Of a stretch of 30,264 nt of DNA, positions 7,759 to 29,647 are shown one piece after another. Position 1 is the first letter of the stretch. Each line of letters starts with the position of its first letter. The notes under the pieces are model-generated. The model ran no database searches and was not told the origin of the DNA. It worked only from the letters and a program-made list of their open reading frames with translations. The position numbers and the translations under genes are program-made. Origin of the DNA: a virus; IMG/VR virus record IMGVR_UViG_3300021957_000191, positions 1-30,264 of that record. One strand, given 5' to 3'.

Positions 7759-10700
7759 TTAAGACTGCATTGTTGCAGGAGTTAGTGCGGGTACAATTAC
7801 TATATCATTCGTAGTAGCCGCGTTTACAAATATTTCATAAGGTCTACATTTAATTTCATAAAGATCACCGAATAGTTTTTCAGGATCATCTGAAACAAGT
7901 ATAACCGAACTCACTAGTTCTCCTATTTGTTCATGTAGATACGCACTTAATTCTGAGAAGAAGAAAGTATCGCCAAAGTTCCAATTGTTGATATCAAAAT
8001 AACTGTCCATTGCTGATAACACAGAACTTCTAATTTCACTATCTGATGCATTTGTTGACTGTGATTTTACCACTTTAATAGTTGCTCTCAATGATTGATC
8101 TGCTTTTATACCGAACAAGGGTTTAAATGTAACACTATTTAATATAACTGAATCCGACAACATTTTATAATCTTGTACTTTGGGATATGCTGTATTCAGT
8201 TCGTTAAGTGTTGGTTGATCAGGCTTGGCTACTGTGTCAGTAGTGTCTTTAATATAATTGTTATATGCTGTATAATATGCTTGTGTTACCAAGTATAAGT
8301 CAATAATATTTGTTGTTGCTGGATCAATACGAGTTGTATTATTAGCATTATGTCTATATTGATAATCTATTCCTTGTCTACCTGATTTAACTGAATAATC
8401 TAACTGTTCAGTCATAATATAATTAGGAGTTGTAATAGTAGGATCTTGCACTGACTTATAAAATTTATTATCAGTAAATGCATAAAATAATTGTCCTACA
8501 GGGAATTCGTATTTTACAATTTCAATTTGATTTTTAGTTCCGTATGTATAAACGATATCACTACTAGGTACAATTAACTGTCTTGTCAAGTTAACTGGAT
8601 CAGTGATTGTTCTAAAGAATACATACACCCCTGTGTTAGCGCCGTTATTTACAAAACCAGTAATGTCATTAAAGAAGTCTGGGTCTAAAATTAATTGACC
8701 ATTGTTGACATCAGTAGCGGCAACTTCAACTTGGAAGTCATTTACATAACCATCTGACTCAACTGTTTGTCCCAAGATATTAACTTTAGTATCTGCGCCT
8801 AACGCAGTTGAAGTATTAAAGACTGTGTTGATACCTAATACATTAATAAAGTCTTGTATAATTTTACCAGTAAACGGATCGTACACTAATTCATCTTTAT
8901 TATAAGTGAAACGTGTATCTGCAACACTACCAAAGTAATATGTCAATGATCTATAAGTTATTGTATAACGATTGTTTCCTAAACTTGTAAATTTAACAAA
9001 GTAGTTTGCGTTTGATGACGCACCGATTGACCAACGTTCTTGGTTGATCAATAATGAATTATTAAAGATTAAAGTAAAGTCTTGTTGTAATTCGATTTTA
9101 AGAATTGCTTCTTGTATAACTGCACTTGATAATGAGTTATCAAAGACAGGAATAATCTCTGTAAGTGTTACTCCGTCAGGTACATAACCGTTTAAAGTAA
9201 CTGGGCCTTTGCCGTTTGCGAATGTTCCTTCTCCGTTATTGTTACCATCACCAACAACATTTAATATTGTTGACCATATATAACTTCTTTCTCCGCCAGT
9301 AGGTACGCCAGCAACTAAACGATTATTATTATCAAAATAGAATCCAACTGGAGCATCAAATTTTAACAATGCCCCTTGAGTTGCATACTTTGCATTAGTA
9401 GTTGTGAATGTTCCTAATGGTTGAGGTTGCTCTATAGTTCCAGTAAGTGAATAAAAATATCCTGTTTCACTTGATGAGTCTACAGAACTTGTTTTCCAAT
9501 ATAATACTGGACTGCCTGCATTTGGATATGCATAACGTGTATAGTTTTGAATGTAATACTGATTAGCACGATTCAATGCAAGTACTGCGGCTAAATCATC
9601 TGTAAAGAATTGAATAATGTCTGATGTGTTGTTTACTTGTAATGTTAAGAAGCCATCAGCAGACTCTTGGTACAATGCTCCGTCATCTCCGAAAGAGTTT
9701 GTACTTGAATACTTGCCTGTTGGGTCAAGTAAATCTAAGTTTTTAGATACACCAATAGAACTTCTATTAACTGCTTTAGATTTAATAATAGAGTTATAAA
9801 GAGTATAAGGGAAGTTTGTGTAATCTTCTCCGTTAACCATACGATTTTGTGTATAGTATCTTGTTGGTGCTCTTTGCTTGATAGCCGCTATAGGTTCTCT
9901 TGCTTGTGCATTTGTTACAGCAACAGGCAATGCAAAGTTCATTGTTAATGTTTGTGTGCTACCTACTCTGTCAACGTATGTAATAGACACACTGACACCG
10001 TTCATTTCAGAAGGGTCAATAACATATGTTAGTGCATTACTTGATCTTACATATGCTCTAAAGTTGCCTACGGGCATCTCTGAGAATACTCCGTCACCAA
10101 ATACATATGTAACTTGATCGTTAACACGTGAGCCTACAGAAAAGATTTTCTTATCACTTGATTCTGTTTGTAAGTATGCATCTGCATAAACATTTTCTAC
10201 TTCTTTCCATGATCCGAATGTGTTGTCTGCATTTGTCTGATACAACCATGTATCAGTTTCGTTGACACCTTCAACATCAATGTTAATTGTTTGGTTAGAA
10301 ATCTGTTGTTGAAAGTTAAAGTTGTATGGAGTTAATGTTCCTTGTTTAAAGAAGAACATAAACCCTGTGTTTGGACTACCAAAACCTAATCTGTCATTTC
10401 TATATAACATATTAATTTTATTAGTCGGTGCTGGTGGAATCTCGTAAACGTAATCTTCATCTAATGAAGTTGCACTTACTAATTCAAAGTTCATTCCTTG
10501 AGCATCAACCTGCGTAGTGAATGGGACAATTGGCATTGTTCCGTCTGGAAGACTGATTGCATATTCACTTGTTGTTACACCTAAAATATCAGATGTGTTT
10601 CCCGGTCTACCTATTTTTTGTGAATCAACCATAGCCGCATTGAATACTGTATTCATCTGATCTAACCAATTTTGATTAGAAGGATCATTCCAACTTATTG

Positions 10701-11121
10701 GTGTATTACTTAAGTTGACACCATTTGCATCTCTGACGTTTTCAGTTGTTCTAACTGATGTTACTTTTAAGAAGCCAGATGCACAAGAATTTCTTTTAGG
10801 TGTATACCCAACTAAGTCTGCAAGTTTTACTACAGAGTCTCTACGTTCGGCCGTGTCAATGAAATTTTCACGTGTGTTTAAATCATTTCTAAAAGCAAGA
10901 CCTTGACCCATAAAAGCCATGACATCAAGTAGAGCAATGAACTCTGAACTTTCAATATAATCGTTATAGGTTTCAGGATAATAAAGTCTAATATAGTCGA
11001 TAAAACTTTTTCTTAGAGTTTCATAATCATATGAACGGAAGTCTGCCTCACGAAAGGTTTCGTAGATTGCTTTCCAATCATTTACTCCAAAGAGTCCTGA
11101 TTGCCTTGAACTTGTAGCCAT
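7759..11121 (-). CDS. gp6: Baseplate wedge subunit gp6-like
   Basis: The 1120-aa product matches the T4 gp6 wedge family over its N-terminus: FGVNDWKAIYETFREADF, then SFIDYIRLYYPETYNDYIESSEF and LLDVMAFMGQGLAFRNDLN, then RRDSVVKLADLVGYTP. T4 gp6 dimers link neighbouring wedges and form the inner ring of the baseplate. The protein is well above the T4 length of about 660 aa; the extra length is in the middle. I place the start at the ATG at 11121 (MATSSRQSG), not at the in-frame TTG at 11139. An AGGGA ribosome site lies 7 nt before this ATG, and a late-promoter element at 11140-11148 would start transcripts at or beyond the TTG. It lies 49 nt after gp25 and 15 nt before the giant structural gene, within the same baseplate operon. 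Confidence 0.9.
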   Translation of the reverse strand: MATSSRQSGLFGVNDWKAIYETFREADFRSYDYETLRKSFIDYIRLYYPETYNDYIESSEFIALLDVMAFMGQGLAFRNDLNTRENFIDTAERRDSVVKLADLVGYTPKRNSCASGFLKVTSVRTTENVRDANGVNLSNTPISWNDPSNQNWLDQMNTVFNAAMVDSQKIGRPGNTSDILGVTTSEYAISLPDGTMPIVPFTTQVDAQGMNFELVSATSLDEDYVYEIPPAPTNKINMLYRNDRLGFGSPNTGFMFFFKQGTLTPYNFNFQQQISNQTINIDVEGVNETDTWLYQTNADNTFGSWKEVENVYADAYLQTESSDKKIFSVGSRVNDQVTYVFGDGVFSEMPVGNFRAYVRSSNALTYVIDPSEMNGVSVSITYVDRVGSTQTLTMNFALPVAVTNAQAREPIAAIKQRAPTRYYTQNRMVNGEDYTNFPYTLYNSIIKSKAVNRSSIGVSKNLDLLDPTGKYSSTNSFGDDGALYQESADGFLTLQVNNTSDIIQFFTDDLAAVLALNRANQYYIQNYTRYAYPNAGSPVLYWKTSSVDSSSETGYFYSLTGTIEQPQPLGTFTTTNAKYATQGALLKFDAPVGFYFDNNNRLVAGVPTGGERSYIWSTILNVVGDGNNNGEGTFANGKGPVTLNGYVPDGVTLTEIIPVFDNSLSSAVIQEAILKIELQQDFTLIFNNSLLINQERWSIGASSNANYFVKFTSLGNNRYTITYRSLTYYFGSVADTRFTYNKDELVYDPFTGKIIQDFINVLGINTVFNTSTALGADTKVNILGQTVESDGYVNDFQVEVAATDVNNGQLILDPDFFNDITGFVNNGANTGVYVFFRTITDPVNLTRQLIVPSSDIVYTYGTKNQIEIVKYEFPVGQLFYAFTDNKFYKSVQDPTITTPNYIMTEQLDYSVKSGRQGIDYQYRHNANNTTRIDPATTNIIDLYLVTQAYYTAYNNYIKDTTDTVAKPDQPTLNELNTAYPKVQDYKMLSDSVILNSVTFKPLFGIKADQSLRATIKVVKSQSTNASDSEIRSSVLSAMDSYFDINNWNFGDTFFFSELSAYLHEQIGELVSSVILVSDDPEKLFGDLYEIKCRPYEIFVNAATTNDIVIVPALTPATMQS

Positions 11122-11139
11122 AGTTTTTCCCTGTTTCAA

Positions 11140-11624: not shown

Positions 11625-14600
11625 CTATTTATGTTTCCAGGTCATAGAGATAGTATCCCATTTCCAAGAACTGGCGCCACCTTGATAACTATAGAGACCA
11701 TAGTTAGTGTAGATACCAGTCTCACTATAACTATCAACCTCTGGTGGTAGTGCATCTGATGCATCATCACCAACAACACTTTCTACTGAGTTGTTCGGTT
11801 CGTAAGGTACTCCGTTTGATTCAGGCATGTAGTCAGTCGTATAAGGTTCAATTTGATATTGAGATTTACTTGTAGGTACATAAGTTTTTGCTATAGTTGC
11901 TAGTATGTTTGAATATGAAGTACCGTATTGAGATGTGTTAGTAGCAACTGGATCAATACCTTGTAATATAACCGCGTTAACCTCGTCAAAGTTCCCCTGA
12001 ACTGGGTTATTTGGATCTTGCACTCCGTTGTTTGTTGATGAATTGTTAAACCCTATTCCGCCCTGACTAGTAGTACTAGATGATGCTTCAAGTAAAGTTT
12101 CAATATCACTAAACGGATTAGTCGTTTGTGCCACTGTATCATTTAATACAACACCATCAAATAGTTGTTCTGCTTGTTGTATCTTATCAACTAGGTCTTT
12201 GTATGCAGGATCTGTTACTGCTGAATCATATGCTGATTGAGCGGCCGCTATTTCAGGTGAACCTGCAGGGAAGTTTGATTGTGCCGCAAACAATGTAGAT
12301 TTTTTCTTAGCAATATCTTTAGACAAACTACTCAATTTTGCTACGTCTTTGGATAATGTTTTCTTTAATGCTGATAGTGCACCAAAGGCGCTTAGTGCCG
12401 CGGCTGGTATTTCACCTAATAAGTTTGGTCTAGGTACAATCGGATCTCCTAACACTTTATCAACTAATCCTGTAATTGTAGATCGATCATATGTGTTGAA
12501 TGCAACAACAGGCAGTTTAATAGTTGAACCGCCACCTGCAGTCAATGATGACAATGCAGATTTTAATGCGGCTGCCGCCCCCGGGCTTAATGCGGCTGAT
12601 AATGGACTCTCTATTGCTCCTGTTAACTGATCTGTAAGAGAGTTAAATGAGTTTTTAATATCTCCTAATGCTGATTGTCCTTCAAATGCTATATCACCTG
12701 CATCTAGACCATCAAATGCTTTCGCCGCTAAATCTCCTAATCCATCTGTCACAGTACCCAAACCGTCTGCTATTGGATTGACTGCACCTTTAGCATTATC
12801 AATAACAGAACCGGCGAGTTTTTGTCCACCTGGCAGTTGACTTATCCCTGATGCAACTGCACCTGATATTCTGGATGTTGCTCCTGTTTGAACTTGACTA
12901 GCCGCGGCTTGTAATCCACCTGAGTTAGTAAGTCTCTGTGTACTTTCACCGAGAGCAGATACACCGTCTACTGCATTATTAATTGCACCGACTGCGTTTG
13001 GTGCCGCTCCTTCTATTAAGTCAGAAACTGCACCAGTACCTGATGTTAAGGCTCCTGAGAATGCATCACCTACTGCACCTGCACCTACTGCACTTTTAAG
13101 ACCAGCACTAATTGAAGCCGGGTCTGCTAAATCTGCTGAACTCATGCCGGCACTTAATCCTGCTACTTTGGCTGCGGCTGCTCCAGCAGTTGCAACTAAA
13201 TCTACTGGTACATTAGCAGGTAATGTAGGGAATGAATTTACTATAGACTTGAACGATGATGCTGATGCTCCGATATTTAAATCAGCACCGACACCAGGTA
13301 AATTTAATCCACTAACATTAAGTGTATCTAATGCTGATGTAATACCACCTGTTGCACCTGATAAATTAGATGCTAACATTGCTGATGCACCTGCTTTCAT
13401 TGAGCCTAAAATACTTCCAGCATCGCCGGATGTGTCTAAGGCAGATCCTGCTGATGCAAAGTTGTTTACTACATCTTTTACTCCAGCAACATTCTTTCCT
13501 AAATTACCTTTATCTGATAATGCTGTTGCTGTACCTTGTACTATGGCTCCCATACCACCTGATGATTCTTTACCTGTAATTACTCCTAGAGTCTGTAATG
13601 ATTTTTGTCCTTTTTGCAAGTTTGATACAGTTGATCCTGCTTGTGCGGCTGGTGAACCTATAAACTGTTGCAAAGAATTTACTCCGCCCTTTCCACTAAA
13701 TGATGACGAAGGCATAATAGATGATAGTGTTGATGTTAACGCCTTACCGCCTATTGTAACATCACTTAATCCTCCTGCTTTAGCAGAAATTAATGTGTTG
13801 ACCATAGTATCTGCGCCGGGTTTAAGAACTCCACCTGCCGCTAATTGAGACGGGGTAGCACCAAACTTTCCTATAACTGCTGTTGTCCCTGCAGAAATGG
13901 CTCCGCCAAATCCACCAGTTAAATTTGTTAATGCTGTAGCGGCTCCACCGCCAATGCCACCAATGCCAAAAGTTGATTGTGTTGATGCGGCTATGCCTGA
14001 TAACATATTTGTAGTAGCATTTTTGTCTAATGAATCACTAATTGCTCCTACTTCACTTACTGCTGAAGCACCTGATGGATTTGTTAACGAAGTCGGTCCA
14101 CCTAAGTCTCCTGATAATTCACTGTTTAAATCTGATATAGTGTCTGACGGTGGAGTAGGAAGTGATCCTTCAGCACTTGGATCTACTTGTACGTCTGCGC
14201 CTTGATTTGCATTCATCCAAGGCATGTGTGCAGGTGCACGTGATGTAACACTCGGTATTTTAGCAAGAGCGGCTGCCCAACCTTTAACATCATCAAAGAT
14301 AGTATCCGGGTGCATTATTATTTCAATAGGTTCTACAACTTCAGCAGTTAAACTTGCGGCTCCGTCATTTAAATGTATCTTTGAACCTTCATTAAAAATT
14401 TCTGCGGCTGATTTAACTCCTACTTGACCTGTTGCATCTAATGCCATTGCCGCATCTGTTTTTATTTTTATATCTTTGAGAGCAAATAGATTATAATCTT
14501 CTCCTACTCTTTGTTTGAATACTTTGTCAGTATTCATTGTGGTGTTTTCAGATGCATTAATGTTTACATTTTTAGCACTTAAATTAAGTGTTTCATCTGC

Positions 14601-15614
14601 GTGTAAATTAAGATCACCTTGAGTACGTAAGTTAATAGAGTTTGTACTAAAGACATCTACTGTGCCTTCTTTACCTAACTCAATATATGATTGACCATTT
14701 GAATGTAGGATAGATAGCATCTGTCCGTCATCACTCATTAGTATTTGATGACCTAATGCTGTACGTAATCTAATTAGTTGGTCTCTGCCGATGATGTCTC
14801 CATCATCCATAACCATCGAATGTCCGCCTCGTCTTGTTACTACTTTAAAATCTTCTGGTTCATCGCCTAACTTACTAGGGATATTTTCATCAGTGGCGCC
14901 ACCTTGATAAACAGGACGACCCGGAGTACTTACTCCCCAACCAACTCTACTTGATGCTTCTCTTGTTGCACTTGTACTGATAGGACCTCTGTACTTGTCT
15001 CTGAGGATACCCTGTTGTTGCATAATAGATGCAGTATAACTATGTACAGGTTTTGCATCTGTTAGATAATTAACACTATCAGAAATGTTAGGGTTGTTTG
15101 TATTAAGATTAGTAGTAGGTAATCTTGCGGCTCCACCGTATGATGTTGCTTCTGTTTCATTAAGAGTTACGTTTTCTGATGCACCGATAGCAGGTATCAT
15201 TGATAATGTTTCTGGATTAGGTATTGTTCCTATATAGAATCCATAGTTAGGATCTCCATTAACAAACAGACAAATGACTTTTGTTAGTTTATCCGGTGGT
15301 GCGTTCCATTGACCATATGAACTAGGGTTTTGAGTGTATGAACCATATTCACCTGTTCCGTCAGCACCGTCAGGTCCAATTGGTGCAGTTTGACCTGCGA
15401 ATCCTGCAAGTCTACCTACCCATATCCAGTTTTCATTATTGTATGCATCTTTGTTAAGATTTTCTGAAGGATACACTGCAACTCTGCCTTGATGCGTAGG
15501 ATCAACTGAACTCATAACAGTACAAATAATAGGTACATCAATTACTGATGCAACGCCCGCACCAGCAGTGTTTCTTTTTAGTTTGCCTCTGGGTTTAAAT
15601 ACGTCAATAGCCAT
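11625..15614 (-). CDS. gp5: gp5-like baseplate hub/central spike protein, enlarged and apparently without lysozyme domain
   Basis: The product has 1329 aa; T4 gp5 has 575. Residues about 25-130 look like the gp5/VgrG OB-fold (VIDVPIICTVMSSVDPTHQG, then WIWVGRLAGF and VICLFVNGDPNYGFYIGTIP). Residues about 255-375 are a spike-type beta-helix start (RRGGHSMVMDDGD, then QLIRLRTALGHQILMSDDGQ, then repeating NLHADETLNLSAKNVNINAS). Only about 125 residues lie between these parts and no lysozyme motif is visible there, so the T4 cell-wall lysozyme seems absent. Residues about 470-1080 are a long Ala/Gly/Ser-rich tract, followed by a probable coiled coil (about 1081-1200) and an aromatic C-terminus. 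The ATG shares one base with the stop of the preceding gene (TAATG). Hub identity is well supported; the function of the Ala/Gly/Ser tract is unknown. Confidence 0.82.
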   Translation of the reverse strand: MAIDVFKPRGKLKRNTAGAGVASVIDVPIICTVMSSVDPTHQGRVAVYPSENLNKDAYNNENWIWVGRLAGFAGQTAPIGPDGADGTGEYGSYTQNPSSYGQWNAPPDKLTKVICLFVNGDPNYGFYIGTIPNPETLSMIPAIGASENVTLNETEATSYGGAARLPTTNLNTNNPNISDSVNYLTDAKPVHSYTASIMQQQGILRDKYRGPISTSATREASSRVGWGVSTPGRPVYQGGATDENIPSKLGDEPEDFKVVTRRGGHSMVMDDGDIIGRDQLIRLRTALGHQILMSDDGQMLSILHSNGQSYIELGKEGTVDVFSTNSINLRTQGDLNLHADETLNLSAKNVNINASENTTMNTDKVFKQRVGEDYNLFALKDIKIKTDAAMALDATGQVGVKSAAEIFNEGSKIHLNDGAASLTAEVVEPIEIIMHPDTIFDDVKGWAAALAKIPSVTSRAPAHMPWMNANQGADVQVDPSAEGSLPTPPSDTISDLNSELSGDLGGPTSLTNPSGASAVSEVGAISDSLDKNATTNMLSGIAASTQSTFGIGGIGGGAATALTNLTGGFGGAISAGTTAVIGKFGATPSQLAAGGVLKPGADTMVNTLISAKAGGLSDVTIGGKALTSTLSSIMPSSSFSGKGGVNSLQQFIGSPAAQAGSTVSNLQKGQKSLQTLGVITGKESSGGMGAIVQGTATALSDKGNLGKNVAGVKDVVNNFASAGSALDTSGDAGSILGSMKAGASAMLASNLSGATGGITSALDTLNVSGLNLPGVGADLNIGASASSFKSIVNSFPTLPANVPVDLVATAGAAAAKVAGLSAGMSSADLADPASISAGLKSAVGAGAVGDAFSGALTSGTGAVSDLIEGAAPNAVGAINNAVDGVSALGESTQRLTNSGGLQAAASQVQTGATSRISGAVASGISQLPGGQKLAGSVIDNAKGAVNPIADGLGTVTDGLGDLAAKAFDGLDAGDIAFEGQSALGDIKNSFNSLTDQLTGAIESPLSAALSPGAAAALKSALSSLTAGGGSTIKLPVVAFNTYDRSTITGLVDKVLGDPIVPRPNLLGEIPAAALSAFGALSALKKTLSKDVAKLSSLSKDIAKKKSTLFAAQSNFPAGSPEIAAAQSAYDSAVTDPAYKDLVDKIQQAEQLFDGVVLNDTVAQTTNPFSDIETLLEASSSTTSQGGIGFNNSSTNNGVQDPNNPVQGNFDEVNAVILQGIDPVATNTSQYGTSYSNILATIAKTYVPTSKSQYQIEPYTTDYMPESNGVPYEPNNSVESVVGDDASDALPPEVDSYSETGIYTNYGLYSYQGGASSWKWDTISMTWKHK
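11626..11633 (-). promoter_or_regulatory. Candidate late promoter abutting the gp25 start codon
   Basis: CATAAATA on the minus strand, one mismatch to TATAAATA, overlaps the gp5 stop codon and ends 5 nt before the gp25 ATG. If used with T4 spacing, transcription would start at about the A of the ATG. It could also be a chance match in AT-rich DNA. Confidence 0.35.
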
Positions 15615-20119: not shown

Positions 20120-21136
20120 ATGAGTAATCTTTTTAAAAAGGCAGCCGTATTCACAGATATACATTTCGGTATGAAAAGCAATAGCATTCAACATAACCGA
20201 GATTGTAGTGATTTTGTGGATTGGTTCATTGAGAAATCAATAGAAGAAGGATGTGAAACGTGTTTGTTCTTGGGTGATTGGAATCATCATAGAGCAAGTA
20301 TCAACATGCACACCTTACAATTCGGACTCAATGCATTAGAGAAATTAAACAATGCATTTGAGAAAGTATACTTCATTACAGGCAACCACGATCTGTATTA
20401 CAGAGACAAACGAGACATTCATTCAGTCGAATGGGCTAAACATCTTAAGAACGTAGTCATTGTCGATCACTTTATCGAAGAAGGCGACTGTGTTATTGCT
20501 CCTTGGTTGTGTGGTGACGATTATAAACTACTTAAAAAGAAGAAAGGTAAATATCTCTTTGCTCACTTAGAGTTGCCATACTTCTATATGAATGCTATGA
20601 TAGAAATGCCCGATCACGGAGAAACAAATGCTGATCATTTAGGACATTTCGATAAAGTCTTCTCAGGGCATTTCCATAAACGTCAAGCAAAGAAAAATAT
20701 TTGGTATATGGGTAATGCATTCCCGCATAACTATGCAGATGCAGGTGATGATGCTAGAGGCATGATGGTACTTGAATGGGATAAGGAACCAGAGTTTCAT
20801 TCATGGCCCGATCAACCTGTATATAGAGTTTATAAACTAAGTGAAGTATTAGATAACCCAGACGGGTTGCTAATTAAGAATGCTCATGTTAGAGTACACT
20901 TAGACATTGATATATCTTATGAAGAATCTAACTTTATAAGAGAACAATTGATACCGGAACATGGACTCAGAGAAATGTCTTTGATTCCTGTTAAGAATGA
21001 TGAACATGCACAAGACTTAGCACCCGGAGAGATATCATTTGAAAGTGTCGATTCGATTATTATCGAACAAATTAAAAACATAGAATCTGATTTCTATGAC
21101 AAAGGTGTACTACTGGAGATTTATCAGTCTATATGA
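20120..21136 (+). CDS. gp47: Recombination nuclease subunit gp47 (Mre11/SbcD family phosphoesterase)
   Basis: The 338-aa protein has the calcineurin-like phosphoesterase motifs in order: FTDIHFG (D13, H15), FLGDWNHH (G52-D53), ITGNHD (G88-D91), FAHLELPYF, and SGHFHKR (H184, H186). These bind the two catalytic metal ions. With gp46 it forms the Mre11-Rad50-like complex that in T4 resects DNA ends for recombination-dependent replication and helps degrade host DNA. Length equals that of T4 gp47 (about 339 aa). The stop overlaps the gp46 start (ATGA), which favours coupled translation and 1:1 complex formation. The ribosome site (GGGA, about 11 nt upstream) is weak. Confidence 0.95.
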   Translation: MSNLFKKAAVFTDIHFGMKSNSIQHNRDCSDFVDWFIEKSIEEGCETCLFLGDWNHHRASINMHTLQFGLNALEKLNNAFEKVYFITGNHDLYYRDKRDIHSVEWAKHLKNVVIVDHFIEEGDCVIAPWLCGDDYKLLKKKKGKYLFAHLELPYFYMNAMIEMPDHGETNADHLGHFDKVFSGHFHKRQAKKNIWYMGNAFPHNYADAGDDARGMMVLEWDKEPEFHSWPDQPVYRVYKLSEVLDNPDGLLIKNAHVRVHLDIDISYEESNFIREQLIPEHGLREMSLIPVKNDEHAQDLAPGEISFESVDSIIIEQIKNIESDFYDKGVLLEIYQSI

Positions 21137-22899
21137 TCAATTTAAAACATGTAACTCTCAGAAACTTCCTAAGTGTGGGCTCTGTTACTCAAGCAGTTGA
21201 TTTAGATAACAAAGAACTCACTCTTATCTTAGGGGACAACTTAGACTTAGGCGGAGATGGTGCTAGAAATGGTACTGGTAAGACTACACTCATTCAAGCC
21301 GTCAGTTATGCATTGTATGGTGTTCCGCTTAATAACATCAAAGCAAACAATTTAATCAATAGAACAAACGGCAAAGGCATGATGGTCACACTAGACTTTG
21401 AAGCCAATGGTGTTGAGTATCGTATTGAACGTGGTCGTAAGCCTCATGGCATGAAGTTCTTTATCAACGGAACAGAAGAAGATGATAACGAAGCACAAGG
21501 CGAGAATAAAGAGACTCAGAAACTTATAGAAGACATCATAGGCATGTCTTCAGTTATGTTTAGAAACATCGTTGCACTCAATACATACAGTCAACCGTTC
21601 TTAAGTATGACACAAGGACAACAACGTGATATCATTGAGCAATTGCTCGGTATCACACTGCTATCAGAAAAAGCAGAGAAGATAAAAGTAAAGATTAAAG
21701 CCAATAAAGAAGAAATACAAGCAGAAGAATTTAAAGTACAAGCAATAGAAGAAGCAAACAAACGAATTGAAGAACAAATCGATAGTCTTAAAAAGAGAGC
21801 AAGACTATGGGATAACAAGACAGCAGAAGACATTAACACATTAAAGAATCAAATTATAAGATTAGAAGAATTAGATATTGATGCCGAATTACTTGGACAC
21901 AATCAATTAACTGTGTACAATGCCTTAGTTAAAGATCATGCAGATATTGACAAATTAATTACTAGAACTAATAATGATGTTGTTAGAGAAGCAAAGGCTG
22001 TTAGCAAGTTTGAGAAAGAATTAGATGTACTAAAAACGAACAAATGTCACACTTGTGGACAAGACTTCCATGATGATGTGCATACACAGGTGTTAGCAGA
22101 CAAAGAAGAAAGTCTATTAGAACATACTAAACACTTAACCGAACTAGCAGAAGTACAAGTAGAACTAGAAGGTGAAAAGAATTCATTGTTTGAAATAGGA
22201 GAACGTCCTAACTTGTTTTATGCTTCAGAATCTGAGGCTATTGAACACAAAAACAAGATCAAAGACCTTAAGGGGCAAGTGTCTCGTAAAGAGACTGACG
22301 AAAATCCGTATATAGATCAGATATCTGAGATGGAAACGAATGCAATCCAAGAAGCAAACTTTGACAAAATAAACGGGTTGTCACGTGTAGGAGATCATCA
22401 GAAGTTCTTACTCGACCTATTAACAAGTAAAGATTCGTTTGTACGTAAGAAGATTATTGATCAAAACTTATCATATTTAAATTCTCGTTTAACTTCATAC
22501 TTAGATAAAATGGGTCTACCACATCAAGTTGTGTTCCAAAACGATTTAAGTGTAGAAATTACAGAATTGGGTAGAGAACTAGACTTTGATAACTTAAGTA
22601 GAGGGGAACGTAATAGATTGATCTTAGGATTATCATTTGCATTTAGAGATGTGTGGGAGAACTTATACTTCCCAATCAATACATTGTTCATTGATGAGTT
22701 GATTGACTCTGGACTAGACACAATAGGTGTTGAGAATGCTATGGCTATTCTTAAAGACATGACTCGTAATCGTAGCAAGTCTGTTTGGTTAGTATCACAT
22801 AGAGAAGAACTAGCAGGAAGAGTTGCTAGTGTCTTACAAGTTATTAAAGAGAACGGATTTACAACATACAATTCAACAAGAGATATGGAAAATCTGTGA
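21133..22899 (+). CDS. gp46: Recombination nuclease subunit gp46 (Rad50/SbcC family ATPase)
   Basis: The 588-aa SMC-like ATPase has a Walker A loop (GARNGTGKTT, residues about 43-52), long coiled-coil segments (about 165-290 and 315-400) around a zinc hook (CHTC, C305 and C308), the ABC signature (LSRGERNRLILGLSFAF, about 485-502) and Walker B (NTLFIDELIDSGLD, about 515-528). It would clamp DNA and drive the gp47 nuclease by ATP hydrolysis. T4 gp46 is about 560 aa, so all parts are present. It overlaps gp47 by 4 nt (ATGA) and the radical SAM gene by 4 nt (GTGA). Confidence 0.95.
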   Translation: MINLKHVTLRNFLSVGSVTQAVDLDNKELTLILGDNLDLGGDGARNGTGKTTLIQAVSYALYGVPLNNIKANNLINRTNGKGMMVTLDFEANGVEYRIERGRKPHGMKFFINGTEEDDNEAQGENKETQKLIEDIIGMSSVMFRNIVALNTYSQPFLSMTQGQQRDIIEQLLGITLLSEKAEKIKVKIKANKEEIQAEEFKVQAIEEANKRIEEQIDSLKKRARLWDNKTAEDINTLKNQIIRLEELDIDAELLGHNQLTVYNALVKDHADIDKLITRTNNDVVREAKAVSKFEKELDVLKTNKCHTCGQDFHDDVHTQVLADKEESLLEHTKHLTELAEVQVELEGEKNSLFEIGERPNLFYASESEAIEHKNKIKDLKGQVSRKETDENPYIDQISEMETNAIQEANFDKINGLSRVGDHQKFLLDLLTSKDSFVRKKIIDQNLSYLNSRLTSYLDKMGLPHQVVFQNDLSVEITELGRELDFDNLSRGERNRLILGLSFAFRDVWENLYFPINTLFIDELIDSGLDTIGVENAMAILKDMTRNRSKSVWLVSHREELAGRVASVLQVIKENGFTTYNSTRDMENL

Positions 22900-25005: not shown

Positions 25006-25194
25006 TTAGAAGAATGGCATTTGAGTTTTCTTAGTAGTTTCTAAGTGTTCCTCAACTAAATTGTTTATGGCTTTCCTTTCTGCTTGGGACATGTTAAGGA
25101 TATCTTCATATGAGGCACCACCACGCATATACCAGGCTAAAGTCAATGCGTTCGACTTTATGCCCTGAGTAAATTCTTCATATTTTGATATCAA
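25006..25194 (-). CDS. gp51: Small gp51-position protein, probably made as a -1 frameshift extension of gp26
   Basis: This 62-residue frame (LISKYEEFTQGIKSNAL, then TLAWYMRGGASYEDILNMSQ, ending TKKTQMPFF) directly follows gp26. gp26 is followed by gene 51 in T4, whose product is a baseplate hub assembly catalyst. The AWYMRGG...E-I-N pattern recalls short downstream proteins next to gp26 genes in other T4-like phages; this is from memory. No good start codon exists: the first candidate is a TTG at 25194 with the AAGGGAG Shine-Dalgarno touching it (zero spacing), and the first ATG falls inside the conserved WYMRGG motif. The frame is open upstream, through the gp26 stop region, to a slippery site. 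The expected product is therefore a gp26 fusion of 355 aa, not a free protein. Confidence 0.72.
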   Translation of the reverse strand: MISKYEEFTQGIKSNALTLAWYMRGGASYEDILNMSQAERKAINNLVEEHLETTKKTQMPFF

Positions 25195-25242
25195 CTCCCT
25201 TATCCCTTCAGGGTCGAGTGAAAGGAGTCTTAGACGAAAAAA
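25194..25242 (-). promoter_or_regulatory. Programmed -1 ribosomal frameshift signal (gp26 to gp51)
   Basis: On the minus strand, T TTT TTC (25242-25236) is in the gp26 reading frame with the X XXY YYZ phase. It is followed by a 7-nt spacer containing the gp26 stop, then a stem ACTCCTT (25228-25222) with AAGGGAGT (25201-25194, one bulged G). Its loop contains a CCC-TGAA-GGG mini-hairpin. The -1 frame reads without stop into the downstream ORF. The 3' arm also covers that ORF's only Shine-Dalgarno-like sequence. Confidence 0.75.
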
Positions 25243-26072
25243 TCCGATGCGTTCAATGTAAATGGTTGCTTATATTCATGCCCACATTCTTCACATTTGA
25301 TGTCTAATGGTTTAATTGTTGATTTCTCTCTAAGTTTAGTGTTATGATCTCTTATAGTTTCATAAGTTTTTGTATCAGCATTCTGTAGAAAATCATATAT
25401 ATGATCAGAATTCGTTACCTCTCCTTCTGGAGTAACGATCTTACTAATTGTGTTGGATAAGATTTCCATTGTTAGAATTGTAATATCTTTTAAGGCTTCA
25501 CCACTTACTGCTCCACGTTCTGTTGGATCTTCAATAGCAGATAGACCTTTATACTTTGCTTGAATGTCAAATTGCTTTAGTGCGGCATCATTCATTTTTC
25601 TATAGTCTAAGGGTGAATAGTAAATTTCTAATTCATTCATCTTTAATGGAGTTTCATAATCGCCAGGGCCTAATGATCTAAGTAAAATTTGTAAATTGAT
25701 ACCGTATGTACCTAAAGCCATACATTCTTTGTTTTCACATTCTGATTCTACATCAATTGTTTCTTGTCCACCTGCGGCTTTAATAGAAATTAGTACAGTA
25801 TCTAAATCAGTACTCAATAATGCCCAAGGGTTTTTGATGTCCGGAACACAACTTTTAATGATCTCAACCATAGCCGATCCATTAAACAATGCATCTGGAG
25901 TCTTAGTTGTAATCTCATCGATTGCTGTCATTGGATAGACAGGCAACTCTTTATTTTCTTCAGGCCATACTATGTCTTCTGGTGCGTATGCATCTCCACC
26001 TGAAGGCAAACTGATATGTACTGCCGGTCTACGAAAAAATTGTCGTAGTGGATTATTTTCATTCATTGTCAT
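25230..26072 (-). CDS. gp26: Baseplate hub protein gp26-like, possible tail assembly chaperone
   Basis: The 280-aa product resembles the T4 gp26 base-plate family of marine phages: PLRQFFRRPAVHISLPSGG, then PVYPMTAIDEITTKTPDALF, NGSAMVEIIKSCVPDIKNPW, LLSTDLDTVLISIKAA, and a C-terminal IKCEECGHEYKQPFTLNASD. Four cysteines in two pairs (C112, C117 and C260, C263) could form one zinc site. T4 gp26 is about 208 aa. The ATG at 26072 has a GGGG ribosome site 7 nt upstream; the ATG at 26066 is less well placed. The last codons GAT-TTT-TTC form a -1 slippery site leading into the gp51-position frame. It is transcribed away from the tape-measure candidate on the other strand. gp26/gp51 are needed for hub assembly in T4; the chaperone reading is an inference from the frameshift. 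Confidence 0.82.
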   Translation of the reverse strand: MTMNENNPLRQFFRRPAVHISLPSGGDAYAPEDIVWPEENKELPVYPMTAIDEITTKTPDALFNGSAMVEIIKSCVPDIKNPWALLSTDLDTVLISIKAAGGQETIDVESECENKECMALGTYGINLQILLRSLGPGDYETPLKMNELEIYYSPLDYRKMNDAALKQFDIQAKYKGLSAIEDPTERGAVSGEALKDITILTMEILSNTISKIVTPEGEVTNSDHIYDFLQNADTKTYETIRDHNTKLREKSTIKPLDIKCEECGHEYKQPFTLNASDFFV

Positions 26073-26176: not shown

Positions 26177-29100
26177 ATGGATGATTTTTCTCCAGAAGAA
26201 ATGCGAGAATTTAATGAAAACTTAAATGCCATGAATGCCTCTATGGGCGGTCTGAGCCAAGGCTTACAGCAGTTATCTCAAACTATTAACAATCTTGACC
26301 AAACTTCACAGCAATCTGCTAAAGAATCAGAACAAACCTCAAAACGATCATCTGATGCAGAAAACAAAAAAAGCGAAAAGAATACAGAGGCAGCCAAGGT
26401 AATAGAAACAACTGCTGAGAAAATGAAAGTGTCGTTAAATCTTGCGACCAATGCTGTAACTAGTTTTGCAGGTGCATTAACTTCAGGTGTTGAAGGTTTT
26501 GACAAGTATACTTCGGCTGTATCGGGCTTTGGAGACTCAGCAAGAAACACAGGCGCGGCATTAGGTGGATTTGGTAAAGCCATAGGCCTTGCTGTAGATT
26601 TAGTTTCTAAGTTTACAGTCATAACAATGAAGCAGGCTGATGCACAAAATGAGTTTGCAAAACAAATGAACAGAATGGGTGCTGTAGTTGATACTACGAC
26701 CCAAGGTTTAGCAGATGCAGCCAGAGAAGCAGGGGCAAGTGCAGGAGACTTACAAGAATTAGCCGCAGTTATCACTCAAAGTTCTGAAGCATTAGCATCA
26801 TTTGGTGCAGGTACTTCTGAAGGTACAGCAAAAATGCTGAAAGTCTTCAAGTTAAGTGATGACCAAGAAAGAGAAATGCGTAGATACGGGTTAACTTTAA
26901 GAGAAGCCCAAGAACAACAAGCATATTACATTGAATTACAAAGAACGTCCGGTGTCAATATGCAGGCGCAGGAGATGAGTGAACAACAGATTCGTCTTAG
27001 ATCATTAAAGTATGCAAAAACATTAACAACACTATCAGAATTAACAGGTGTTCAAGCAGGTAGACTTAAAGAAGAACAAGCCGCAGTACAAGCAGACTTA
27101 CGAAATAAAATTCGTAATATGCGTGATCAAAATGATATTGAAAGACTCAAAAAACAATTAGACGGTGATATTACTGCTGAAAAGAGAGCATCGATAGAAG
27201 CAGAAATAAAATCAAGGAACCAAGAAATAGAAGTAAGAGTAGCCGCTGGTAACCAATTTGCAGGTTTATTAGGTCAAGACATGGCTGCCAAAGTAATGAA
27301 TGTCATTGGCACTGGCGCATTTGACGAAAACACAAAAGAATTAGCAAACTTAGGACTTAATGCCGGAGAACTTGCAAAGAGATTTGAAGGATTAACTGTT
27401 GGTTCAGATGAATACAAACAAGCAATTGCCGAAACAACAGGTGAATTAGTAGGTGGTGTTAGACGAAACGTAGATAGGTTCGGTAAGTCTATGGAACTTG
27501 CCGCTAACGCCAGTGAGATTGGAGCCGCAGTAGGCATTAATGATGCAACAACAGACAAAGCAATGAAGTTTATGTCTGAAGAAAGTGCGATAGACAGAGT
27601 ATTATCAAGTTTTGATGAAGTAGCAGAGTCTACTGAAAAAGGTGCAGACAAACAAAAAGATTTAGCCGCTGAACTACAAGTAGTTGAAACTAATGTTAGA
27701 ACAGCCGCAGATGACTTTTTGAATAGTATGAATCCATTTACAGGTGCATTAGGATTAGGCACTCTGGCGATGGCCGGATTAACAACAGCCGCCGGCGTTG
27801 CCGCAACGGCTTTATATGGCATGTCAGGCTCAGGTGGCATAGTAGATATGCTGTTGGGTGGAGGCAAAAAAGGCGGAGCAGGTGGAGCCGCAAGAAAATT
27901 CTTAACAAAAGGTGCAACTAAATTTGCCGCACCACTAGCCGCAGGAATGGCTATATATGGCGGTTATGCTCAAGCAAGTGAAGGACGAGATCAAGCAGAT
28001 AGTACACTTAATGCTACATTGCTTGATGAAAATGCCGATGCAGCCGAGAAACAACGTGCTAAAGAACAACATGAAATAGATACTAAACAAGCCAATAGAA
28101 AAGGAGCCGGCACAGGAGTCGGTGGCGCCGGTGGCGCCCTTGCAGGTGCAGCCGCAGGTGCAGCCATAGGCTCTATTGTTCCATTTATCGGAACAGCAAT
28201 TGGTGGTATTATCGGTGGAGCCTTAGGAGCATACGGTGGATCCAAAGGCGGCGGTATGGTTGGGGAAATGTTGTCTCCTGACGACCTAGACGCAACATTG
28301 AAAAGTGATGCTGAATTTCAACTTATGTCTAAGGAAGAACAAGACGAATATACCGAATTACGTAGGACAATTGAAGAACAAACGGAAAAACGTAACGCAG
28401 AAGAAAGAAGATTATCAAAACTTACTACTGATAAGATAGAAGAAAATGGACTATACACTAAAAACGGGTGGCTCCAAGACAGTGAAGTAAACTTTGAAAA
28501 GTTAGCACAAATGAGAGATGCAGGTAAATTAGAAACCGATATGCTTGAGGCTATGCTACGAGATAATGATTTAAGTGAAAAAGATACGGAACTAGTACAA
28601 CAACAGTTAGATTTACTTAAAGCAAAAGATGAAAAAGACGAAGCAAAAGATAAAAAAGAAAAAGATGTAGCAGAGGTTAAAGAGCCAGGTGAAGTGTCCG
28701 GCAGAACACTAGACATGTCTCCTGAAAATCTAGCCAAGATATTTGAAGCAGATTTAAAAGCAACAGCAAAAAACGATGCAGAAAAACAAGCAGAAGCAGA
28801 CAGCAAAAGAATCGCAGTAGTAAAAGCAAAAGAAGAATCGATTAACAAACAAATTACATCTGAAGTTATTGCTAATGCACTTAATGATACTGGAAGTGGT
28901 TCTCCCGCTTCAAAGATAGATACAGCCAAACTATTAGAAGCATCACAAGTTCAACAAAATCTGTTAGCAGATGCATCACCAACAGGAATCCCTACAGCGG
29001 ATGCATTAGAAAAAGTTGAAACACGACTTTCTACAGATGATATTTTAAAAGAAGTTCAAGTTTCAAATGAGAAAGTTGCAACTCTTATAGATTCACCTGC

Positions 29101-29647
29101 AATTAAAAAGACAGTAACCGATGAGCCAATGAATGAGGCTACACGTGAATTCGTTGATTGGGCAGATTCAGACGAAGGTAAAGCAGAGATTGCTCAGAAT
29201 GAAAAAATTCGTGCTGAGAAAATGGCAGAAATGAAAACTTCTGCTGAAAATCAGATGCTGGCAAAAGAAGATCAATACCGAGAAGTACTAGACACTGGTA
29301 AATACAAAGGTAAAGATGCTAGTGAAAGTATGATGGGGCAGGCTGAGAAATACCTTGCAAGTATCGAAGAAACTAAAAATAATCGAATGGCTATGGATCA
29401 ATCTGGCCTTCTAAATGCTCCTCAAGTTGATATTGAGCCGGAGCCAGTTGAAGAAGCACAATCTGTAGATGAGTTTAGACAAGAGCAATTCGCCCAAACT
29501 GCGCCTGAGGCAGGAGAAATGACTGAATATGAAAAACGTAGTCTAGCACTGCAAGAACAGCAGATTGCGAAACTGGCTAGGATTGACAATGCGACAACAG
29601 AGACAGCAGACGGTACCCAAAAAATTGCAACTTACTCTAGTGTTTAA
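26177..29647 (+). CDS. Putative tail tape-measure protein
   Basis: I infer this role; there is no clear family match. The 1156-aa protein is Ala/Glu/Lys-rich with long predicted helices: residues 1-75 (FNENLNAMNASMGGLSQGLQ and following), about 220-360, and a charged region about 700-960. Hydrophobic Gly/Ala-rich segments lie at about 522-553 (GALGLGTLAMAGLTTAAG), 581-601 and 643-695 (glycine-zipper-like GTAIGGIIGGALGAYGG). Long helices plus a few membrane-like segments are typical of tape measures, which set tail length and enter the host envelope. It lies between gp26/gp51 and gp20; T4's tape measure gp29 (590 aa) is also near 26-51. An AGGA site is 9 nt before the ATG. The C-terminus (LQEQQIAKLARIDNATTETA) shows no enzyme motif. 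Alternative: an internal virion protein. Confidence 0.5.
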   Translation: MDDFSPEEMREFNENLNAMNASMGGLSQGLQQLSQTINNLDQTSQQSAKESEQTSKRSSDAENKKSEKNTEAAKVIETTAEKMKVSLNLATNAVTSFAGALTSGVEGFDKYTSAVSGFGDSARNTGAALGGFGKAIGLAVDLVSKFTVITMKQADAQNEFAKQMNRMGAVVDTTTQGLADAAREAGASAGDLQELAAVITQSSEALASFGAGTSEGTAKMLKVFKLSDDQEREMRRYGLTLREAQEQQAYYIELQRTSGVNMQAQEMSEQQIRLRSLKYAKTLTTLSELTGVQAGRLKEEQAAVQADLRNKIRNMRDQNDIERLKKQLDGDITAEKRASIEAEIKSRNQEIEVRVAAGNQFAGLLGQDMAAKVMNVIGTGAFDENTKELANLGLNAGELAKRFEGLTVGSDEYKQAIAETTGELVGGVRRNVDRFGKSMELAANASEIGAAVGINDATTDKAMKFMSEESAIDRVLSSFDEVAESTEKGADKQKDLAAELQVVETNVRTAADDFLNSMNPFTGALGLGTLAMAGLTTAAGVAATALYGMSGSGGIVDMLLGGGKKGGAGGAARKFLTKGATKFAAPLAAGMAIYGGYAQASEGRDQADSTLNATLLDENADAAEKQRAKEQHEIDTKQANRKGAGTGVGGAGGALAGAAAGAAIGSIVPFIGTAIGGIIGGALGAYGGSKGGGMVGEMLSPDDLDATLKSDAEFQLMSKEEQDEYTELRRTIEEQTEKRNAEERRLSKLTTDKIEENGLYTKNGWLQDSEVNFEKLAQMRDAGKLETDMLEAMLRDNDLSEKDTELVQQQLDLLKAKDEKDEAKDKKEKDVAEVKEPGEVSGRTLDMSPENLAKIFEADLKATAKNDAEKQAEADSKRIAVVKAKEESINKQITSEVIANALNDTGSGSPASKIDTAKLLEASQVQQNLLADASPTGIPTADALEKVETRLSTDDILKEVQVSNEKVATLIDSPAIKKTVTDEPMNEATREFVDWADSDEGKAEIAQNEKIRAEKMAEMKTSAENQMLAKEDQYREVLDTGKYKGKDASESMMGQAEKYLASIEETKNNRMAMDQSGLLNAPQVDIEPEPVEEAQSVDEFRQEQFAQTAPEAGEMTEYEKRSLALQEQQIAKLARIDNATTETADGTQKIATYSSV

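Follow-up and report, generated by a model that had tools for sequence, protein, structure and literature searches.

How is a small open reading frame (ORF) expressed when it overlaps the end of a phage gene in another frame and has no usable start of its own? This question is raised by gene 26 in the window, that is, the whole stretch of 30,264 nucleotides analysed here (IMG/VR record IMGVR_UViG_3300021957_000191, positions 1 to 30,264). A sequence-only reading of the window had proposed that gp26 and the small ORF are joined by a programmed -1 frameshift, and the proposal is followed here in relatives of the phage. Elsewhere the window carries a gp6-like baseplate wedge protein (7759-11139, minus strand; phrog_10646, E 6.9e-249; its listed start is TTG), a 1329-aa ORF (11625-15614, minus strand) with a match to phrog_13211 (baseplate hub subunit and tail lysozyme) over its first 400 residues, and an AAA_23/SMC-type ATPase (21133-22899, plus strand) that is probably a gp46-like recombination nuclease subunit.

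The slip site at the end of gene 26

The product of gene 26 matches the Pfam family PF12322 (E 5.6e-12, 46.2 bits against a cut-off of 24.5) and the baseplate hub family phrog_150 (E 4.7e-13), and its AlphaFold2 model has a pLDDT of 92.9 and a pTM of 0.86. Its reading frame (Table 1) ends with GAT TTT TTC GTC TAA. This end includes an in-phase T TTT TTC heptamer, from which the -1 frame runs without interruption to its own stop; in both respects the sequence-only reading was right. A shift at the heptamer would join gp26 residues 1-279 to the 76 codons of the -1 frame, giving a predicted long form of 355 aa beside the short form, with the junction peptide ...NASDFFRLR.... The small ORF indeed offers no usable start in the window, since its TTG (25194) lies directly against AAGGGAG and its first ATG sits within the conserved WYMRGG motif.

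Table 1. Coordinates of the features discussed (window positions unless a locus is named)
Feature	Position	Strand	Remarks
gp26 (0-frame product, short form)	26072-25230	-	280 aa; Pfam PF12322 T4_baseplate, phrog_150
Slippery heptamer T TTT TTC	25242-25236	-	in phase with gp26; from sequence and conservation in relatives
gp26 stop codon TAA	25230-25232	-	one codon past the heptamer
-1 frame ORF, predicted gp51-type C-terminal domain	25006-25236	-	76 codons, stop ending at 25006
Downstream stem-loop, likely stimulator	25193-25229	-	arms 25229-25221 and 25201-25193; from fold, family z and covariation
Divergent neighbour, tape-measure-like	26177-29647	+	1156 aa; phrog_794
Tandem gp26-family genes of one jumbo phage	L258:376-2316 (IMG/VR 3300043399_000272, 3300047548_000628)		first an in-frame gp26-gp51 fusion, second short without slip site
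Ackermannviridae loci with -1 domain, no canonical heptamer	L032, L033, L034, L262-L284		NTT TTY; some with TAATG at the gp26 stop

We consider it highly probable that one message of gene 26 is translated into both gp26 and a gp26-gp51 fusion, the latter by a programmed -1 ribosomal frameshift at the U UUU UUC that lies close to the gene's end, and the proposal has strong comparative support from the heptamer, the selection on the -1 frame, the stimulatory elements and the gene copy number. Ribosomes on UUU UUC would slip back one base, aided in the lineage of the window by a downstream stem and in cyanophage-type phages also by an upstream Shine-Dalgarno (SD)-like sequence, and the shifted ribosomes would read on through the gp51-type domain. 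Of the two products, gp26 would presumably be the major and the fusion the minor one.

Might the heptamer be there by chance? Relatives were gathered from IMG/VR and from named phages, and the dereplicated set comprises 139 junctions, from cyanophages to RaK2- and Atu_ph07-type jumbo phages. T TTT TT followed by C, T or G stands at the junction in 139/139 of them: 133 have TTTTTTC, all in phase, five have TTTTTTT and one has TTTTTTG. The codon preceding the heptamer is of the form xxT in 139/139, against a background of 75%. Within the same genes TTT TTC is used at just 6 of 95 other Phe-Phe pairs (Fisher p 3e-49, a descriptive value in which related sequences are treated as independent). Chance is thus excluded. 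The gap between heptamer and stop is one 0-frame codon in 122 of the 139 relatives, and the -1 ORF is 56-77 codons long while the +1 frame is open for at most 30. At 24-32% identity, each of the ten jumbo phages examined (Phosso, Atu_ph07, Cassandra, SCTP-2, Kaldavass, XaC1, RaK2, PBECO4, Munch and Vibrio 2.275.O) carries T TTT TTC at this position together with an open -1 frame. T TTT TTC followed by an open -1 frame is also present in S-CAM1, P-RSM1, B23, BUCT608, S-PM2, KVP40 and Aeh1, T TTT TTT in Melnitz, HTVC008M, Cr30 and phiM12, and T TTT TTG in RL38J1. In the last of these, a Rhizobium phage, the gp26 junction (L031:2067-2386) falls within an annotated terminal repeat. Two divergent relatives (L290, L296) have T TTT TTA as slip site.

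Coding selection, stimulatory elements and other explanations

Is the -1 frame under selection as a coding sequence? In 208 close pairs, single-base codon changes in the -1 frame were 2683 synonymous and 987 nonsynonymous, against 632/3456 in the 0 frame and 251/3683 in the +1 frame (descriptive counts, related sequences being treated as independent). Of the three frames, only the -1 frame evolves in the manner of a coding sequence. Its synonymous bias extends to the part that precedes any possible start (778/434 against 212/1126).

This last result bears on the possibility that the small ORF forms an independent gene, with its own start or translated by termination-reinitiation at the gp26 stop. 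Some relatives do have starts that overlap this stop, of the TAATG type in 16/139 and of the ATGA/GTGA type in 16, and TAATG is seen in Vibrio phage K474 and some Ackermannviridae; where the TAATG-type overlap is present, a small protein may therefore be translated separately to some extent. The small gene is moreover annotated separately in several records. However, the window has no such start, no ATG is found in the first 12 codons of 74/139 relatives, and 46 have neither ATG, GTG nor TTG there. The sequence-only reading had named, as evidence against itself, relatives with a clear ATG and ribosome site and no heptamer or open -1 frame; an ATG with a ribosome site occurs in the first 12 codons of 2/139 and any start with such a site in 5/139, while all 139 have the heptamer. 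An independent gene would also leave the invariant heptamer unexplained, would not need coding selection upstream of any start, and does not fit the relative in which both parts are one in-frame protein. We regard it as very unlikely.

Are there stimulatory elements beside the slip site? The window has a stem after the heptamer, as first proposed, but it consists of nine contiguous pairs, two of them G-U, behind a 6-nt spacer, and not of seven pairs with a bulge behind a 7-nt spacer. By itself this stem is not unusually stable (z -0.82). In the family, 50-nt segments just past the heptamer are unusually stable, with mean z of -2.4 in the cyanophage-type group and -2.1 in the jumbo-type group, while most other 50-nt segments have z close to zero. 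In 30 jumbo-type sequences, 82% of the cells of the nine-pair stem are paired, against 41-55% in slid controls, and there are 28 double changes against a shuffle mean of 11.1, with none of 500 shuffles as high; these covariation figures come from an explicit pair count, RNAalifold recovering four pairs only. The alignment of gp26-gp51 junctions, suggested with the original proposal, thus has the heptamer and an open -1 frame throughout and a covarying stem in the jumbo-type phages, where the stem is a likely stimulator of frameshifting. An Rfam search gave a chance match only. In cyanophage-type loci an SD-like 4-mer lies 10-11 nt upstream in 66/87 (background 12%), and the Glu codons at this element are GAG 55 times and GAA 4 times, against 535:1288 elsewhere. 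The element is nearly absent from jumbo-type loci (2/50). This suggests that stimulators differ by lineage, an SD-like sequence upstream in cyanophage-type phages and a covarying stem downstream in jumbo-type phages.

The same elements speak to transcriptional slippage, in which RNA polymerase would add or drop a base on the T run and so produce mixed mRNAs. The T run is conserved, and an identical fusion would result. Nevertheless the run is six T and then C in 133/139 relatives, shorter than is usual for transcriptional slippage, and the exact phase with its xxT codon, the SD-like element at a set distance and the downstream stem would be pointless for a polymerase. Slippage of this kind is highly improbable. 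A sequencing error or pseudogene, for which the frame change itself and nothing more could be cited, is refuted by the comparative data and has a negligible chance of being right, since 155 junctions from isolates and metagenomes have the same arrangement and the -1 frame is under purifying selection.

The extra domain and T4 genes 26 and 51

What, then, is the domain that a programmed frameshift would add? In T4, residues 1-201 of gp51 match PF12322 (E 3.9e-52), so gp51 is a gp26 paralogue with a C-terminal extension. The -1 domains of cyanophages match phrog_634, 'baseplate hub assembly catalyst' (3.5e-28 for S-PM2), and also the C-terminal part of phrog_150. In hhalign comparisons the cyanophage -1 domain matches the C-terminus of gp51 (E 2.3e-7), the whole cyanophage fusion matches T4 gp51 up to residue 246 of 249 (6.9e-14), and the jumbo fusion matches the cyanophage fusion throughout (1.8e-18). 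The jumbo -1 domain alone has no significant hhalign match to T4 gp51, so its identity rests on the alignment of the fusions. By collinearity with the cyanophage fusions, the small ORF is predicted to be the C-terminal domain of gp51. The name gp51 given to it by the sequence-only reading therefore holds for the domain, but not for the position: T4 gene 51 is a full-length gene on the strand opposite gene 26, and the small ORF is not its positional equivalent. The end of T4 gene 26 was likewise ruled out as a slip site, as it has no heptamer and is followed by gene 25. Thus T4, which lacks a slip site, carries two homologous genes in opposite orientations, whereas the window has one gene with a slip site. 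It has been reported that the gp51 of cyanophage and marine vibriophage is without some 200 N-terminal residues and that Aeh1 is without gp51 (Sullivan et al. 2010, PMC3037559); frameshifting would account for both.

Sequence searches of solved structures gave none for gp51 or the gp26 profile, and Foldseek gave no significant match for gp26 in the PDB, while a viral structure library queried with gp26 returned other baseplate hub proteins. A model of the natural fusion in the jumbo-phage record L181 is good locally (pLDDT 82.6) and poor overall (pTM 0.58), and no placement of the domains is claimed from it.

Gene copy number and tail assembly

If frameshifting makes both forms, genomes without the slip site should have two genes. 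Among 36 records searched (the SCTP-2 copy was found by tblastn only), the slip site is present in 26 with a single copy, while T4 and four related Straboviridae lack it and carry two copies. The sole dereplicated jumbo junction without the slip site is that of L181 and L182, which do not differ over the stretch retrieved. There gp26 and gp51 are naturally fused in frame, and the adjacent short copy ends without Phe-Phe. Where the slip site was lost, both forms would thus come from two genes, 26 and 51 in T4. On the tree, both L181/L182 copies are in the clade of the window (100/100) and T4 26 and 51 are in the T4-like clade (100/100). The copies fall in separate clades, which indicates two independent duplications. 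An exception is the Ackermannviridae: three records have one copy and no canonical heptamer, yet the -1 domain is kept, with NTT TTY codons at the place of the slip site. These codons resemble the T7 gene 10 site; in some of these phages the -1 domain may instead be reached by a restart at TAATG.

These results give a scenario that we hold to be reasonably likely. The slip site would go back to the common ancestor of a very wide range of T4-related and jumbo myophages, and duplication would have replaced it at least twice independently, in T4-type Straboviridae and in L181/L182. Stimulators would have turned over, with SD-like elements and variable hairpins in some lineages and a conserved stem in others, and Ackermannviridae may use a T7-gene-10-like N NUU UUY. 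The ratio of short to long form would then be kept by interchangeable means.

What might the two proteins do? T4 gp26 and gp51 have been named hub assembly chaperones, and gp51 is described as essential, of unknown function and not in the virion (PMC3004832). The ORF next to gene 26 in the window matches phrog_794, tail length tape measure protein (E 1.8e-14), and its RaK2 equivalent is annotated as similar to tape measure protein. The T4 names and the adjacent tape-measure-like ORF make a tail-assembly-chaperone role for gp26 and the predicted fusion plausible. The known parallel is G/GT of lambda (Xu, Hendrix and Duda 2004; review PMC5009743), which resembles the predicted system in its -1 shift late in the first gene, in its minor longer protein and in the tape-measure-like gene next door. 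It differs in its slip site, has no detectable sequence relation, and lies directly upstream of the tape measure gene in the same direction, whereas gene 26 in the window is divergent from the tape-measure-like ORF. In a fold comparison with the HK97 tail assembly chaperone (2ob9), 2ob9_B scored Z 5.5, tied with unrelated proteins. By analogy with G/GT, the tape measure protein may be the binding partner of the part common to both forms, and the extra domain may bring a further tail or hub component into the assembly. The 2016 review names T4 as an exception to G/GT frameshifting (PMC5009743).

The sequence-only reading knew of no description of this for gp26 and gp51, a view that does not stand. 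Two papers (PRFect, PMC10885494; Adele, PMC12846349) credit Vladimirov, Gautam and Davidson 2022 (Virology 566:9-15) with the identification of T4-like tail assembly chaperones in a short and a long form; some T4-like phages have a slippery poly-T, and others have a separate gene for each form. Genes 26 and 51 are not mentioned by name in these citations; we strongly infer that this family is very probably meant, and the core finding, as cited there, is very probably already known. The window differs from those T4-like phages in that its lineage is of the jumbo type, has a stem downstream of the heptamer and lacks the SD-like stimulator. In the literature seen, which includes Vladimirov et al. 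2022 through its citations, there is no description of the extension to RaK2- and Atu_ph07-type jumbo phages, of lineage-specific stimulators or of the second duplication. If true, the finding would set right how gp51 is annotated in many phage genomes, where it is listed as absent, as truncated or as a small hypothetical protein. It would also offer natural pairs, frameshift against duplication, with which to test the ratio of short to long chaperone that a contractile tail needs.
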